This document shows, piece by piece, positions 9,793-17,394 of a DNA stretch of 64,000 bases. A program made the position numbers and the translations under genes. Source of the stretch: Saprospiraceae bacterium (lineage in GTDB: Bacteria; Bacteroidota; Bacteroidia; Chitinophagales; Saprospiraceae); contig JAHBTW010000006.1 of NCBI GenBank assembly GCA_019638385.1, forward strand, positions 1-64,000, read 5' to 3'. The notes beneath the pieces are model-generated. The model did not search any database and had not been told where the DNA came from. It saw only the letters and a program-made list of their open reading frames with translations. How positions within the stretch are numbered: position 1 is the stretch's first letter; every line of letters starts with the position of its first letter.

Positions 9793-11322
9793 ATGCCCAA
9801 TTCCCCACAGCGCTTCTTTACGCCCGCCAATCTCTCTATGGCATTGGCGGCGCTGCTCCTTCTCCTCATCAACGGTTTGATACCCTACCCTGCCGAGCCT
9901 ACCGATTTTTCCCGGTTGGGCATGAACTGTCTGCTCATAGAGCAACAGGGCTGGAAATACGCCGTGAATGACAATTGGGGTTTTGCGCTGCCTGCGTTGA
10001 GCTATGCCCTCACCGGTATCACAGGCGATCTGTTGTGGGCGCAGCGGTTCGTGAGCGGCGGGTTTGCGCTGTTGGCTTATTGGTTGATTTTGCAAATTTT
10101 CATCCGACGGCTCGGCGGCACGTTTCATTGGCCGGCGTTTGCGGGCGCCTTGCTGCTGCTGTTCAATTTTACTTTTTTCATCGTTGTCATTTCCTGTCAT
10201 TGGGACATTATCCCCATCACGGCGGTGCTGTTCGGTATTTGGAAATTGCAAAAACTGAACCCGCGAAACGCTTTTTGGATCGGCCTGGCGGTGGCCGTCG
10301 GATATTGGTTCCGGTTTCACTTTTTGGGCTTTGCGCTCCTGTATCCGATGCTGGCGTATGTGCTGCGCGAGGACCGTTCATGGAAAGTGCCTGCACTCGT
10401 TGCGTTGGGCTGCGCGGCCGGCATCGCGCTGCCGCACGGACTTTCGATATGGGCATTCGGGCAGTTCAGTTTGTCCAATCAGGCGGCGGTGATTTCGGAG
10501 ATGTTTACCAAAGTCAATTACGACTGCGACTATGAGCGTAGCATAAAAGAAATGCCCGTCGGCAAGCTGCTTCAAACAGGCGACTGGACGGAAGTGCTGA
10601 GAACGTTTTACAAAGACCTTACTTTCTATTTGGAAATAAGTCTCTTTCTCATTGCCTTCATTTCCTTCTTGTTTGCCTCATTGGTAAAAAAAACTCGCCT
10701 GCAATGGCGCTTTCGGAGCAGCACGGCCAAGCAGATTGTATGGATTGCCGTGTATGTGAGTGTCTGCACTCTGCCTTTCATCTTGTTGCGCAATATGACG
10801 GGGCGACTGTTGGCCGCTTTTTTGCTGCCTGTTTTCCCGTTGTTTTTGTGGCTTATGTGCCGCTATGGTCGCCTCATGGCGGGTATTACCCTCGCGCTGA
10901 TCCTCATCCTGCCGCTGCGCCTCAGCAGTCACTACTCTTATTACCGCAACTATGCGCGGCAACATCGGCAGGACTTTGATATGGTGTCAAAACACATTTC
11001 CAAAACGGTTTTCAGAGATACGCCCGAGCGCGTATTGATAACGGAGTATGAGTTCTTTCTCAATCCGCTGCACCGCTATTGGTTGGCGGCGCCGGCATTG
11101 ACCATCGGTATTAGTTGCCGCTACGAGCCTTTTCATGTGTTTTTTGATCGGATTAAATTAGAAGACCTGGCCAACCCGGAACGCATGAGCTGCTATGATT
11201 ACCTCATCACGCCATCGCCGTTATGGAAGGAAAGCTACTGGTCCTTCGATACCATACAGCAATATGTCTTTTGTCCTTTGACCGCCCGCAATGAGCACAT
11301 TGCGATCTTTCGGTGTGACTGA
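9793..11322 (+). CDS. Polytopic membrane protein, possible GT-C glycosyltransferase (paralog 2)
   Basis: The 509-residue multi-pass protein is the second copy of the family seen at 6008-7528. It keeps the first-loop acidic DF pair, GWKYAVNDNWGFA, the WFRFHFLGFALLYP helix and a PHGLSIWAFGQFSLSNQAAV segment. Its C-terminal soluble part contains YRYWL-like and CRYEPFHVFFDRI segments matching [13 protein letters not shown] in paralog 1. The two probably arose by duplication and may transfer different sugars to the same acceptor class. No gene-family name was recognised with certainty. It begins 5 bases after the DUF433 gene. Confidence 0.68.
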   Translation: MPNSPQRFFTPANLSMALAALLLLLINGLIPYPAEPTDFSRLGMNCLLIEQQGWKYAVNDNWGFALPALSYALTGITGDLLWAQRFVSGGFALLAYWLILQIFIRRLGGTFHWPAFAGALLLLFNFTFFIVVISCHWDIIPITAVLFGIWKLQKLNPRNAFWIGLAVAVGYWFRFHFLGFALLYPMLAYVLREDRSWKVPALVALGCAAGIALPHGLSIWAFGQFSLSNQAAVISEMFTKVNYDCDYERSIKEMPVGKLLQTGDWTEVLRTFYKDLTFYLEISLFLIAFISFLFASLVKKTRLQWRFRSSTAKQIVWIAVYVSVCTLPFILLRNMTGRLLAAFLLPVFPLFLWLMCRYGRLMAGITLALILILPLRLSSHYSYYRNYARQHRQDFDMVSKHISKTVFRDTPERVLITEYEFFLNPLHRYWLAAPALTIGISCRYEPFHVFFDRIKLEDLANPERMSCYDYLITPSPLWKESYWSFDTIQQYVFCPLTARNEHIAIFRCD

Positions 11323-11454
11323 GAGTGTGGAGAAAAATACCGCCAACCATCAATTATTACACAAACCCCATCTTTTATTGCCAAAATTGCAACATCATTT
11401 GGTTTTTTTAAATACCTGTTCAAAAAAACGGCAAAAAATTTGTATCCCCGAATA

Positions 11455-11571
11455 ATGCACATGACTTTTGCCGCCATTCAAAAACGCACAGCGATTATGC
11501 TCGGGTCTTTCTTCTCCATCGGTATTTTTATTGTAGTCGTCATTCGGCGCCTGACGGGGGGATGGACTTAA
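11455..11571 (+). CDS. Putative branched-chain amino-acid leader peptide
   Basis: A 38-codon frame begins with ATG at 11455 (or the in-frame ATG at 11461) and stops at 11571. Its second half is loaded with regulated residues (FSIGIFIVVVIRRL), including consecutive Val-Val-Val-Ile codons at 11533-11544. This is the hallmark of ilv leader peptides, where ribosome stalling at scarce Ile/Val/Leu codons controls a downstream hairpin. It ends 19 bases before a long hairpin and 84 bases before ilvD. A small membrane protein is the alternative reading, because the same residues would form one transmembrane helix. Confidence 0.6.
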   Translation: MHMTFAAIQKRTAIMLGSFFSIGIFIVVVIRRLTGGWT

Positions 11572-11590
11572 ACCGGTAATGATTGCCGAC

Positions 11591-11628
11591 CGACAAGAGC
11601 CGTTCTCCCGCGAGAGCGGCTCTTGTCG
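11591..11628 (+). terminator. Long hairpin before ilvD, possible attenuator
   Basis: CGACAAGAGCCG (11591-11602) pairs perfectly with CGGCTCTTGTCG (11617-11628), and the stem continues inward with one wobble to a CCGC loop. A poor T-rich tail (TATTAACCTTGTT) follows. An alternative pairing, CGGGGGGA (11555-11562) with TTCTCCCG (11603-11610), gives 8 pairs including two wobbles and would break the upper stem. That arrangement fits an attenuator between leader peptide and ilvD. Confidence 0.6.
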
Positions 11629-11655
11629 TATTAACCTTGTTGAAAACGCGAAAAA

Positions 11656-13329
11656 ATGGAAAAATGGAACCGGCATAGCCGCACCCTCACCGAAGATGAA
11701 AGCCTGCCCGGCGCTCAGGCCATGCTGCACGGCATCGGGCTGACGGAGGACGACTTTCGCAAAGCGCAGGTGGGCATTGTGAGTACCGGGTGGGAAGGCA
11801 ACCCCTGCAACATGCACCTCAACGGCATCGCCGCACAACTCAAACAGGAAGTGCAGGCGCAGGGCCTGATCGGTCTCGTCTTTCACACCATCGGCGTGAG
11901 CGACGGCATCTCTATGGGCACCGACGGCATGCGCTACTCCCTGCCCTCCCGCGAAATCATAGCCGACTCCATCGAAACGGTGGCCGGCGCACAGTGGTAC
12001 GACGCCGTGGCGGCCGTGGTCGGCTGCGACAAAAACATGCCCGGCGCTATGATGGCCTTAGCCCGGCTCAACCGGCCCGGACTACTCGTGTATGGCGGCA
12101 CCATACGCCCCGGGTTTTACGGCGAACGCAAATTGGACATTGTATCGGCCTTTGAAGCCTACGGGCAGAAGTCGGCCGGCGCTATTTCCGAAGAGGAATA
12201 CCGGGAGGTCATTCGCCGCTCCATACCCGGCCCCGGCGCCTGCGGCGGCATGTACACTGCCAACACCATGGCCTCTGCCATAGAAGCGCTGGGCATGAGC
12301 CTGCCCATGAATTCCTCGCTGCCCGCCGCTTCCGATGAAAAAGCCTCCGAACCGGCGCGGGTAGCCGCCGCGCTGCGCCGTCTGCTCGAACTCAACTTGC
12401 GCCCCCGCGACATCATGACCGCCCCGGCTTTTGAAAATGCCATCACCGTATTGACCGTGCTCGGAGGCTCCACCAATGCCGTGCTGCACCTCATCGCTAT
12501 GGCCAAAGCGGCCGGCGTGCCCCTCACCATTGACGACTTCCAGCACATCAGCGACAAAACGCCCTTCCTGGCCGATCTCAAACCCAGCGGGCGTTATGTG
12601 ATGGAAGACCTCTACTTGGTGGGCGGTGTGCCCGCTGTGATGCGCATGTTGCTGGACAACGGCTACCTGCACGGCGACTGCCGCACCGTGACCGGCAAAA
12701 CCATTGCCGAAAATCTCGCCGATGCGCCCACGCTCTCTCCCGGCCAGGATGTGGTGCGCCCGCTCGACCGCCCCATAAAAGCCTCCGGGCACATACAAAT
12801 CCTCTACGGCAATCTCGCGGAAGAAGGGGCAGTGGCCAAAATAACCGGCAAAGAGGGCGAAGTATTCAGCGGCCCGGCCCGCGTATTTGATGGCGAATCG
12901 GCTGCCAATGAGGCCATTGCGGCCGGCGGCATACAGCCCGGCGATGTAGTTGTGATTCGCTATTGCGGCCCCAGAGGCGGCCCCGGCATGCCCGAAATGC
13001 TCAAGCCCACTTCCGCCATCATCGGCGCCGGGCTGGGCGACAGCGTGGCGCTCATCACCGATGGGCGATTTTCCGGCGGCACCCACGGGTTTGTGGTAGG
13101 GCACATCACCCCCGAAGCGCAAAGCGGCGGCCTCATCGCCTTGCTTCAGGATGGAGACCCTATTCGCATTGACAGCATCCAAAACCGAATAGAAGCGCTC
13201 CTGCCGCCCGAAACCATACAACAGCGCCGCGCCGTATGGCAACCGCGCCCCTTACCAGTGTCTTCCGGCTATCTTGCCAAATATGCAAAAACGGTGTCAT
13301 CGGCCACGGAAGGCTGCGTCACCGATTAG
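11656..13329 (+). CDS. ilvD: Dihydroxy-acid dehydratase
   Basis: The 557-residue enzyme converts dihydroxy-acids to 2-keto acids, the third common step of valine, leucine and isoleucine synthesis. Iron-sulfur and signature regions are clear: [12 protein letters not shown] near 132-143 and [15 protein letters not shown] near 192-206. Further conserved blocks are [10 protein letters not shown] and [11 protein letters not shown]. Length is normal for the IlvD/Edd family, and IlvD is favoured over Edd by the flanking ilv genes. It is first in the operon ilvD-ilvB-ilvN-ilvC. Expression is likely controlled by the leader and hairpin just upstream. Confidence 0.96.
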
Positions 13330-13357: not shown

Positions 13358-15130
13358 ATGCTAAAGACGAAAAGCATTCATCAAAATGGGGAAAAGGGTA
13401 AAACCCATTCAACCCACGCCACCGATTCCGTCAACTCCGGCAAAACCGTAAGCGGCGCCGAGGCGGTGCTGCTGTGCCTGTTGGAAGAAGGCATTGACAC
13501 CATTTTCGGCTATCCAGGCGGGGCCATTATGCCGGTATATGACGCTTTGCACTATTACGAAGACCGCATCCGGCACATCCTGCCCCGGCACGAGCAGGGC
13601 GCCATCCATGCGGCGGAAGGGTATGCGCGGGTAACCCGCAAAACGGGCGTGTGTATGGCTACCTCCGGTCCGGGCGCTACCAATCTGGTAACCGGCCTGT
13701 CGGATGCCATGCTCGATTCCACGCCTTTGGTGTGCATCACCGGGCAGGTGGCGGCTCATCTGTTGGGGTCCGATGCGTTTCAGGAAACTGATATCATCGG
13801 CTGCACCACGCCCATTACCAAATGGAACTGCCAGGTCACTACAGCCGATGAAATACCGGAGGCGTTTGCAAAAGCATTTTACATTGCCAATTCCGGCCGG
13901 CCCGGCCCGGTGCTGATTGACATTACCAAAAATGCGCAAATAGAGTTGATGCGCTTTCAGTACCGGCGCAACCCCTACATCCGCAGCTACCACCCCACGC
14001 CCAAGCCCGGCGCGGACGCGATACAAGCCGCTGCCGACCTCATAAACGGCGCTGAACGGCCTATGATTCTGGCCGGGCACGGCATCCAAATTGCACATGC
14101 ACAGGAGGTGTTTCGGGCTTTTGTGGAAAAAACAGGCATCCCGTTGGCTTGTACCATTCACGGCCTGTCGTCCATCCCTTCCGACCACCCGCTGCACACC
14201 GGAATGCTGGGTATGCACGGCAACTACGGCCCCAACATCAAACAGAATGAATGCGACGTACTCATTGCCATCGGTATGCGCTTCGACGACCGGGTGACCG
14301 GCAACCTGGCCCGCTATGCCCGGCAGGCTCAGATTATACACATAGAAATAGACCCGGCAGAAATTAACAAAAATGTGAAAGCGCACATACCGCTGCCCGG
14401 CGACGCCAAAGCTACGCTGGAGGCGCTGCTGCCGTTGGTGCGTGAAAAATCGTACCCCGTATGGCTACAGGGGTTCCGGGATTGCGACCGCATTGAAGAG
14501 GAAAAGGTCATTCGAAAAGATATGTCCGTACCCGCAGACGGCAGTCTGAAAATGGGTCGGGTAGTGAGAGAGGTATCGCGGCAAACGCAAGGCAAAGCCA
14601 TTGTGGCCACCGATGTGGGGCAACACCAGATGATTGCCGCGCGCTATTACGAATACTTGGATACCAACCAGTGGGTGTCGTCCGGCGGAGCAGGCACGAT
14701 GGGCTTCGGGCTGCCGGCCGCATTCGGCGCCAAAATAGCCCGGCCCGACAAAGAAGTGGTAGCCTTCATCGGCGACGGCGGTTTTCAGATGACCATTCAG
14801 GAATTGGGCATGTGCTCGCAGTGGGATGCCGCCGTGAAAATCGTCTTGTTAGACAATGAATTTCTCGGCATGGTACGGCAGTGGCAGCAGTTGTTTTTTG
14901 ATCGGCGCTACTCTTCTGTGGCCTTAAAAAACCCTGATTTTGTAAAAATCGCAGAGGGCTTCGGCGTGGCCGGTCGCAAAATTGACAAACCGGAAGAACT
15001 CGAAGAAGCCGTGGCAGAAATGCTCCGCCACCCCGGCCCGTATCTGCTGCATGTGCGCGTAGAAAAAGAAGAAAACGTTTTCCCAATGGTGCCGAGCGGC
15101 AAAGGCGTGGATGAGATTGTGCTGGAGTGA
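13358..15130 (+). CDS. ilvB: Acetolactate synthase large subunit
   Basis: The 590-residue thiamine-diphosphate enzyme makes acetolactate or acetohydroxybutyrate. The N-terminal domain has [19 protein letters not shown] and the catalytic glutamate in [15 protein letters not shown]. The C-terminal cofactor motif [13 protein letters not shown]...[16 protein letters not shown] binds the diphosphate and Mg2+. About 35 residues precede the conserved core, including a Lys/His/Thr-rich tail that may be dispensable. It follows ilvD by 28 bases. A 195-base structured gap separates it from the small-subunit gene. Confidence 0.96.
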
Positions 15131-15325: not shown

Positions 15326-15862
15326 ATGGAAAAAGAATACACCATCACCGTTTTTTCGGAAAACCAGACCGGGTTGCTGCAACGCATCGTGTCGGTCTTT
15401 ACCCGCAGGCACATCAACATTGAGAGCCTGACGGTATCCAAATCCTCACTGCCGGGCATACACCGCTTTACCATTGTGGTGTTGGTCACGGAGGAAATGG
15501 TACTCAAATTGGTCGCGCAATTGGACAAACAAGTGGAAGTGCTCAAGGCATTTCATTATGAGCGGGAAGGCATTGTTTATCAGGAAATTGCACTGTACAA
15601 AGTACCTACTTCGGCCTTTAGCAACGGGGATCATGTAGAGCGGCTCATCCGGGCGCACAGCGCGCGCATCCTCGTCATTGAGCCGGACTATGTGGTGATT
15701 GAAAAAACCGGGCACGCCCACGAGACCGAGCTACTGCTCCGGGAATTGGAAAAAATCGGCATTTACGAGTTTGTTCGATCGGGCCGCGTGGCCATTGTGA
15801 AAGCGATGGAACGGCTCAACACCTACCTCAAAGACATGGAAATACAACTCGATCACAATTAA
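15326..15862 (+). CDS. ilvN: Acetolactate synthase small (regulatory) subunit
   Basis: The 178-residue regulatory subunit starts with an ACT domain (YTITVFSENQTGLLQRIVSVFTRRHINIESLTVS, about 4-37), the valine-binding feedback site of IlvN/IlvH. The C-terminal half (ARILVIEPDYVVIEKTGH, then LLRELEKIGIYEFVRSGRVAI) matches the large-subunit activation domain. It is slightly longer than E. coli IlvH, as is usual in Bacteroidota. It partners the IlvB encoded upstream and is followed after 22 bases by ilvC. Confidence 0.95.
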   Translation: MEKEYTITVFSENQTGLLQRIVSVFTRRHINIESLTVSKSSLPGIHRFTIVVLVTEEMVLKLVAQLDKQVEVLKAFHYEREGIVYQEIALYKVPTSAFSNGDHVERLIRAHSARILVIEPDYVVIEKTGHAHETELLLRELEKIGIYEFVRSGRVAIVKAMERLNTYLKDMEIQLDHN

Positions 15863-15884: not shown

Positions 15885-16934
15885 ATGGCAAAATTGAATT
15901 TCGGCGGCACGGAAGAGAACGTCGTCACCCGCGAAGAATTTCCGCTTGAAAAAGCACAAGACGTATTAAAAGATGAGGTCATCGGCATCATCGGCTACGG
16001 TGTGCAAGGCCCCGGGCAGGCGCTGAACCTGCGCGACAACGGCTTCAACGTCATCATCGGGCAGCGCAAAGGCTCCTCCACCTGGGACAAAGCCGTGAAG
16101 GACGGCTGGGCGCCCGGCGAAACACTCTTTGAAATAGAAGAAGCCGCACAGCGGGCTACCATTATTCAGTACCTGCTGTCGGATGCGGCGCAAATAGCCG
16201 TATGGCCTGCGCTCAAGCCGCACCTTACGGCCGGCAAAGCGCTCTATTTTTCGCACGGCTTTGCCGTCACCTACAGCGAGCGCACGGGCATTGTGCCGCC
16301 CTCCGACGTGGATGTCATTCTCGTGGCGCCCAAAGGCTCCGGCACCAGTTTGCGCCGTTTGTTTTTGGCCGGCAGAGGGTTGAACTCCAGCTACGCCGTG
16401 GCGCAAAACGCATCCGGTCGCGCTTTCGAGCGGGTCATTGCACTGGGCATCGGCATCGGCTCCGGGTATTTGTTTGAAACCACCTTCCGCAACGAAGTTT
16501 TCAGCGACCTCACCGGCGAGCGCGGCACCCTCATGGGCGCTATTCAGGGTGTTTTTGCTGCGCAATACGACTGTCTGCGCCGCCACGGGCACAGTCCCTC
16601 CGAGGCATTCAACGAAACAGTGGAAGAACTCACCCAAAGCCTCATGCCTTTAGTGGCCGAAAATGGAATGGACTGGATGTACGCCAACTGTTCCACCACC
16701 GCTCAGCGCGGCGCCCTGGACTGGTGGGGCCGCTTCCGCGACGCCGTAGCGCCTGTGTTTGAAGACCTATACAAGAGCGTAGCCGCCGGCGAAGAAGCCC
16801 AACGCTCCATTGACTCCAACAGCAAAAGCGACTACCGCAAACACTTAGAAGAGGAACTGAGCGCATTGCGCGAAAGCGAAATGTGGCAGGCCGGACGCAC
16901 CGTACGGGGGCTGCGACCGGAAGCAGAAAAGTGA
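15885..16934 (+). CDS. ilvC: Ketol-acid reductoisomerase
   Basis: The 349-residue enzyme isomerises and reduces acetolactate with NADPH. The N-terminal Rossmann motif is GIIGYGVQGPGQALNLRDNGFNVIIGQRKGSSTW, where the arginine and serines after the second strand favour NADPH. The metal-binding domain includes DLTGERGTLMGAIQGVF and a glutamate-rich helix (FNETVEELTQSLMPLV). Length is that of the short class I form plus a small C-terminal extension. It is the last gene of the ilv operon. Confidence 0.95.
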   Translation: MAKLNFGGTEENVVTREEFPLEKAQDVLKDEVIGIIGYGVQGPGQALNLRDNGFNVIIGQRKGSSTWDKAVKDGWAPGETLFEIEEAAQRATIIQYLLSDAAQIAVWPALKPHLTAGKALYFSHGFAVTYSERTGIVPPSDVDVILVAPKGSGTSLRRLFLAGRGLNSSYAVAQNASGRAFERVIALGIGIGSGYLFETTFRNEVFSDLTGERGTLMGAIQGVFAAQYDCLRRHGHSPSEAFNETVEELTQSLMPLVAENGMDWMYANCSTTAQRGALDWWGRFRDAVAPVFEDLYKSVAAGEEAQRSIDSNSKSDYRKHLEEELSALRESEMWQAGRTVRGLRPEAEK

Positions 16935-17152: not shown

Positions 17153-17394
17153 CGATGCAAATCGCGCACAAAGACAACCGGTCTGTTTTCACCTCCCCCC
17201 ATGAGCAGTTTTCAGGATGTGCATTTCTAATGCATTGCATGGAGTTTTGAGCATACACCACTACGACCAAATGGCGGCCACTCGCCACATCGTCGCAATT
17301 CATACACACTCAATACATTCGGCTTAGACGAATGAAAACACTTGACACATTAAACAAGCAGCGTCCGGCGTACTCCGGGCGCTGCTTTTGTTTT
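17153..17394 (+). ncRNA. Candidate small RNA ending in an intrinsic terminator
   Basis: About 240 bases lie between the promoter-like site and a strong hairpin (AAGCAGCGTCCGG at 17356-17368 pairing with CCGGGCGCTGCTT at 17375-17387, one wobble) followed by TTGTTTT. It contains a TGCATT-TCT-AATGCA stem-loop near 17220. Only tiny frames are present. No known RNA family (SRP, 6S, RNase P, tmRNA) was recognised. It could instead be the leader of the M48 peptidase gene at 17532. Start and function are inferred. Confidence 0.35.
17356..17394 (+). terminator. Rho-independent terminator
   Basis: A 13-bp stem with one wobble and a 6-base loop is followed by TTGTTTT, the clearest intrinsic terminator in this part of the window. 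It lies about 420 bases after ilvC, so it may end the operon or the candidate small RNA. Confidence 0.7.

Follow-up and report, generated by a model that had tools for sequence, protein, structure and literature searches.

The ilv and trp attenuators of Escherichia coli operate by the same principle as the element described here. Those of the E. coli ilvGMEDA operon, with its ilvL leader, and of ilvBN combine a short leader ORF rich in branched-chain codons with mutually exclusive antiterminator and terminator helices that control the ilv operon. Leader-peptide attenuators have also been predicted in Actinobacteria (PMC1262725). Among the Bacteroidota, a study on Flavobacterium psychrophilum reports "strong clues" for leader-peptide attenuation at amino-acid operons (PMC9723704), short ORFs reminiscent of attenuation leaders have been noted in Bacteroides thetaiotaomicron (PMC7366714), and the Bacteroid-trp motif (RF01692) was listed as a Bacteroidetes cis-regulatory RNA by Weinberg et al. 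(PMC2864571). The view of the first-pass annotation that such attenuators have mainly been described in proteobacteria is thus out of date, given the predictions in Actinobacteria (PMC1262725) and the F. psychrophilum study (PMC9723704). The mechanism itself is not new; it is a classical switch type that is little described in Bacteroidota.

The window, by which we mean the whole stretch of 64,000 nucleotides that was analysed, contains an ilv operon with the gene order ilvD-ilvB-ilvN-ilvC, all in one direction (Table 1). The element located upstream of ilvD is very probably a ribosome-mediated (trp/ilv-type) transcription attenuator by which the levels of charged tRNA-Ile and tRNA-Val are sensed. 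It combines a run of end-product codons, a terminator hairpin, an exclusive antiterminator and the corresponding spacing, and the assignment is based on its conserved anatomy and spacing and on covariation in both helices. The gap between ilvC and the gene for an M48 peptidase (17532) contained a 15-bp hairpin with one mismatch, ACAAGCAGCGTCCGGCGTACTCCGGGCGCTGCTTTTGTTTTGG, at positions 17354-17389, which with its T-rich tail is likely to be the operon terminator. Upstream of the operon, positions 9793-11322 encode a protein of 509 amino acids with many hydrophobic stretches, for which a Pfam search returned nothing at an E-value of 0.001.

Table 1. Positions of the leader elements and the ilv genes in the window.
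Feature	Position	Strand	Evidence
Candidate Bacteroidota promoter: TTTG 11439-11442, 20-nt spacer, GACTTTTG 11463-11470	11439..11470	+	Sequence
ilv leader peptide ORF, MLGSFFSIGIFIVVVIRRLTGGWT (stop), 24 aa	11497..11571	+	Sequence; congener ORF; conserved Ile/Val runs
Possible segment 1, pairing with segment 2 (pre-emptor 1:2 hairpin)	11504..11515	+	Minimum-energy fold only
Control codons Ile-Gly-Ile-Phe-Ile-Val-Val-Val-Ile: 4 Ile, 3 Val, no Leu	11518..11546	+	Sequence
Segment 2 (antiterminator 5' half), GGGGGATGG, overlapping the last leader codons	11557..11565	+	Conserved motif GGAGGATGGTA; covarying pairing with segment 3
Terminator-type hairpin 3:4, 17 bp, loop CCGC, then weak U-tract TATTAACCTTGT	11591..11628	+	Fold; homologous to the AAAAAGCCGTTCTCC...GAGAACGGCTTTTT hairpins of relatives
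Segment 3 (part of terminator 5' arm and antiterminator 3' half), CCGTTCTCC	11600..11608	+	Common to two mutually exclusive covarying helices
ilvD, dihydroxy-acid dehydratase, 557 aa, first gene of the operon	11656..13329	+	PF00920 and PF24877
ilvB, acetolactate synthase large subunit	13358..15130	+	TPP enzyme domains and gene order
ilvN/ilvH, acetolactate synthase small subunit	15326..15862	+	PF10369 and PF22629
ilvC, ketol-acid reductoisomerase	15885..16934	+	PF07991 and PF01450

The 38-codon frame at positions 11455-11571 to which the first-pass annotation had drawn attention, with its run of isoleucine and valine codons, is present in the sequence; the frame is open as far back as 11440 and reads ...AIMLGSFFSIGIFIVVVIRRLTGGWT before the TAA stop at 11569-11571. 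The 38-aa version starting at ATG 11455 was set aside, as the predicted promoter overlaps this codon, and the leader probably starts at ATG 11497 and is 24 residues long. A scan for sigma-70 promoters identified no site near the leader, as expected in a Bacteroidota genome, and the TTTG/TAnnTTTG pattern was therefore used instead. The putative promoter element GACTTTTG differs from TAnnTTTG by one mismatch and would place the transcript start at about position 11477, which is downstream of both ATG 11455 and ATG 11461, so that ATG 11497 would be the first usable start codon. Sequences matching TAnnTTTG with at most one mismatch were located 8 to 60 nt upstream of 38 of 58 leader starts, as compared to 18 of 58 in a shifted control region, and perfect matches were found in 11 cases versus 1 in the control.

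To study the conservation of the leader, 60 upstream regions were retrieved from within the same family with the IlvD protein as a query, and almost every one of these genomes represented a different genus. We also included the 80 best loci in named public genomes (Saprospiraceae, Flavobacteriaceae, Chitinophagaceae and others), of which a few duplicated the first set, and two congeners of the window's genus, G100 and G031. With an Ile/Val run defined as at least 8 Ile/Val in 12 codons, leader ORFs with such runs were identified in 46 of 141 ilvD upstream regions in the sense direction, as compared to 1 of 141 in the antisense direction and 1 of 2820 dinucleotide shuffles. In 59 of the 141 regions, a leader ORF with a U-tract hairpin after it was flagged; a few of these regions were low on Ile/Val, and the window itself was not flagged because its hairpin tail is without Ts. 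The flagged taxa included Saprospiraceae, Flavobacterium, Lutibacter, Dokdonia, Algibacter, Aquimarina, Aurantibacter, Sediminibacterium and an Ignavibacteria bin. The leader, the hairpin and the alternative pairing were retained in roughly half of the relatives from the same family and recurred in Flavobacteriaceae, Chitinophagaceae and Ignavibacteria, and a tail motif was common to distant relatives, being GGWT in the window and GGWY in loci L044, L045 and L054. A lack of conservation of the small frame and its Ile/Val codons had been named as a refutation at the outset; the frame, the codons and the hairpin were all found to be conserved.

Within the genus, congener G100, in which ilvD is 87% identical, contained the leader, the hairpin and the pairing, and its peptide MSVLRSHISNVVVEIIRHREGE (stop) was encoded at the same place (L142). 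The ilvD upstream region in congener G031 (L042), in which ilvD is 83% identical, contained no leader and no hairpin, which indicates that the attenuator can be lost within one genus.

Two additional arrangements were observed in the relatives. Locus L057 had a tandem arrangement about 30-310 nt upstream of its single ilvD, in which one complete Ile/Val attenuator, with MNFNLTIQVVIAIIIIVLR and a hairpin, is followed by another, with MFQSSIRIIVNIIIVVVIIIAILKGG and a second hairpin. Loci L043, L044, L045, L046, L048, L054 and L058 carried a TCGTAAGA / TCGTAACAAT-like element twice between the terminator and ilvD, with a spacing of about 80-100 nt. These copies were located in a long post-attenuator stretch, often with a second promoter-like TTTG site after them, and were absent from the window; they are possibly a repressor site or a second promoter.

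The relatives share the layout leader...GGAGGATGGTATTGA...AAAAAGCCGTTCTCC..loop..GAGAACGGCTTTTTGTTT, in which a 10-bp antiterminator is formed by GGAGGATGGT and the 5' arm GCCGTTCTCC. The corresponding pairing in the window is between 11557-11565 (GGGGGAUGG) and 11600-11608 (CCGUUCUCC), with 9 pairs including G-U, and extends into a duplex of -22 kcal/mol. An 8-bp pairing between 11555-11562 and 11603-11610, as originally proposed, does exist, but the pairing that is conserved is shifted by one to two bases and is longer.

Covariation in the 2:3 helix was examined in 27 sequences, in which the segments were anchored by motif rather than by pairing. In total, 84.4% of the cells were paired as compared to 80.8% in the shuffles, none of which reached the observed value (0/500), although the absolute percentage is raised because the motif used to anchor segment 2 is similar to the complement of segment 3; the shuffles keep the shared ancestry. 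Five pairs had changed on both sides, the covariation score was 0.305 versus 0.230 (0/500), and the pairing fell to 34-52% when the partner was slid. For the terminator helix 3:4, 92.3% was paired and 9 pairs contained double changes, with 0/500 on every measure. A separate script applied to 34 loci gave 5/2000 and 0/2000. The 2:3 antiterminator shares the 5' arm of the terminator 3:4, and the 2 helices are thus mutually exclusive and both covary, in agreement with the suggestion that an alternative pairing competes with the hairpin. Together with the leader, hairpin and pairing conserved in the relatives, these 2 exclusive helices support the attenuator reading of the first-pass annotation.

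The spacing of the segments was also similar across loci. In 28 loci, the distance from the last Ile/Val codon of the run, counted from its first base, to the start of segment 2 had a median of 15 nt (range 6-24), and in all of the 28 loci measured segment 2 started within -12 to +12 nt of the stop codon; in the window and its congener the former distance was 15 nt in both. With this spacing and the size of the ribosome footprint, a stalled ribosome would leave segment 2 open, whereas a ribosome at the stop codon would cover it. The predicted fold of the RNA from 11556 to 11610, in which segment 4 has not yet been made, was 2:3 (-22.6 kcal/mol), and 3:4 was predicted once segment 4 was present. 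At equilibrium, the terminator in the segment 11556-11640 had an energy of -39.6 kcal/mol versus -29.3 kcal/mol for a forced 2:3 helix, which implies that switching must depend on folding during transcription.

From this anatomy we infer a course of events that runs from the promoter through translation and stalling to termination. RNA polymerase would start at about 11477, and a ribosome would translate the leader of 24 amino acids. If Ile-tRNA or Val-tRNA is scarce, the ribosome would stall on the Ile/Val run, leaving segment 2 free to pair with segment 3, in which case the terminator would not be formed and ilvDBNC would be transcribed. If both Ile-tRNA and Val-tRNA are plentiful, the ribosome would reach the stop codon and cover segment 2, segments 3 and 4 would form the 17-bp hairpin, and transcription would stop before ilvD. 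The switch thereby probably lets the cell raise the expression of the operon when isoleucine or valine runs short. Counting against an attenuator are the poor U-tract, the missing element in one of the two congeners (G031) and the equilibrium energies, which favour the terminator.

The long hairpin noted between the small frame and ilvD was found to consist of 17 uninterrupted pairs, with an energy of -32 kcal/mol when positions 11589-11632 were folded alone. The 179-nt leader RNA (11477-11655) had a predicted energy of -64.4 kcal/mol (z = -3.8; 0/200 dinucleotide shuffles). The hairpin was missed by a generic terminator scan because its tail, UAUUAACC, or UUGUCGUAUUAACC with the outer stem opened, is without Ts and contains no proper U-tract. 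The T-tail measure (nT) of d'Aubenton-Carafa was 3.5 for the window and 3.6 for the congener, where the hairpin is followed by UUGUUGUAUAUAAA; the relatives, a set selected for T-rich tails, scored 4.1-6.6. The U-tract is thus present in relatives that were chosen for having one and interrupted in the window and its congener, and good U-tracts were found after other hairpins in the 284-kb stretch of the same contig that was surveyed. Since the U-tract is broken, termination is probably weaker in the window's genus than in the relatives, and the weak tail may represent a leakier terminator, early decay or assisted termination.

The last of these would mean that the genus has shed the U-tract and kept the hairpin and the antiterminator, with 3:4 stopping the polymerase by a non-standard route such as stem-driven pausing or the help of a Rho/NusG factor. 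This is a variant of the attenuator explanation rather than an exclusive alternative to it, and is consistent with a conserved stem and a lost U-tract in 2 species, but the involvement of a factor is conjecture and U-tract terminators exist in the same genome; we consider it unlikely. Decay, in the sense of an ancestral Ile/Val switch that is still recognisable and regulates little because of its broken U-tract, would explain the weak tails in the window and its congener as well as the complete absence of the element in the second congener. Nevertheless, the hairpin has retained its 17 pairs without a mismatch, the outer A/U pairs of the stems in the relatives have been replaced by CAAG/CUUG in both species with the stem kept, and the Val-Val-Val block and the pairing potential persist, all of which makes decay quite unlikely.

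Another argument against decay comes from the trpE leader of the same genome, the tail of which resembles that of the ilv leader with a better U-tract, UUGUCGUUUUAGG. The region upstream of trpE (L159 reverse strand, 941-1110; G000:C20) contains a promoter-like TATATTTG followed by the peptide MILSLHTNAWWWHIHSEFRVR with three consecutive Trp codons, and then a 16-bp hairpin, ACAATCGGC...GCCGATTGT, followed by CGTTTTAGG, which is the same layout as in the ilv element. It thus represents a probable second attenuator in this genome and also speaks for the attenuator reading of the ilv leader. The trpE leader had no match in Rfam. Inspection of hisG and thrA in the same genome revealed no candidate leader, and a search of this genome for the LeuA_dimer domain did not identify any, suggesting that attenuation is not universal for its amino-acid operons. 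The missing LeuA_dimer domain would fit a leader responding to Ile and Val and not to Leu.

The remaining explanations were weighed against the conservation and covariation data. It is very improbable that the ORF encodes a small membrane protein with a function of its own and a hydrophobic Ile/Val stretch serving as a membrane helix; this stretch has the length of a helix in some relatives, but apart from Ile/Val the leader is not conserved in sequence, nor in length (13-40 aa) or at its ends, and the same pairing segments and hairpin accompany the ORF from relative to relative. A chance combination of a hydrophobic ORF with either an unrelated inverted repeat or the upstream gene's terminator would account for a hairpin tail that is not T-rich, and single short ORFs are frequent by chance, but this is contradicted by the conservation, the controls and the covariation, and 269 nt separate the end of the upstream gene from the hairpin, so that coincidence can hardly be maintained. 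A metabolite-binding riboswitch, a T-box or a protein-binding leader is an extremely improbable explanation for this structured leader before a biosynthetic operon, since the window contained no Rfam match at the gathering threshold, including Bacteroid-trp (RF01692), Thr_leader (RF00506) and Phe_leader (RF01859), and a permissive scan of the region gave chance-level matches only; sub-threshold matches to Thr_leader and Phe_leader were obtained in relatives, several of them on the wrong strand.

The comparative evidence for the attenuator thus indicates that classical Ile/Val attenuation is widespread at Bacteroidota ilvD operons. Earlier comparative work may already list ilv attenuators in Bacteroidetes, and the present analysis adds the breadth of the distribution, the covariation and a consensus for the antiterminator. 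The consensus, GGAGGATGG:CCGTTCTCC, falls outside any Rfam family and provides a simple way to annotate such leaders, which also offer a testable system for transcription-translation coupling in a phylum whose promoters and translation starts are unusual.

The element differs from the E. coli ilv attenuators in that its control codons are for Ile and Val, with Leu only at residue 2, outside the run, and residue 19, in its gene order, ilvD-B-N-C, and Bacteroidota-type promoter, in the U-tract that is broken in the genus, and in the overlap of segment 2 with the last part of the leader ORF. The F. psychrophilum candidates belong to the same phylum and likewise consist of leader peptides before amino-acid biosynthesis operons, but the main text of that study names no ilv leader and describes no antiterminator covariation (PMC9723704). 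Bacteroid-trp is also a Bacteroidetes cis-regulatory RNA, tied by name to trp genes (PMC2864571), but even a permissive threshold yielded no match to it in the window or in this genome's trpE leader. The leader and attenuator of Corynebacterium ilvBNC similarly place a leader peptide and a terminator before an ilv operon outside the Proteobacteria (PMC1262725, PMC11857589, PMC10272879), but in another phylum and with another gene order, and the likeness is one of layout.
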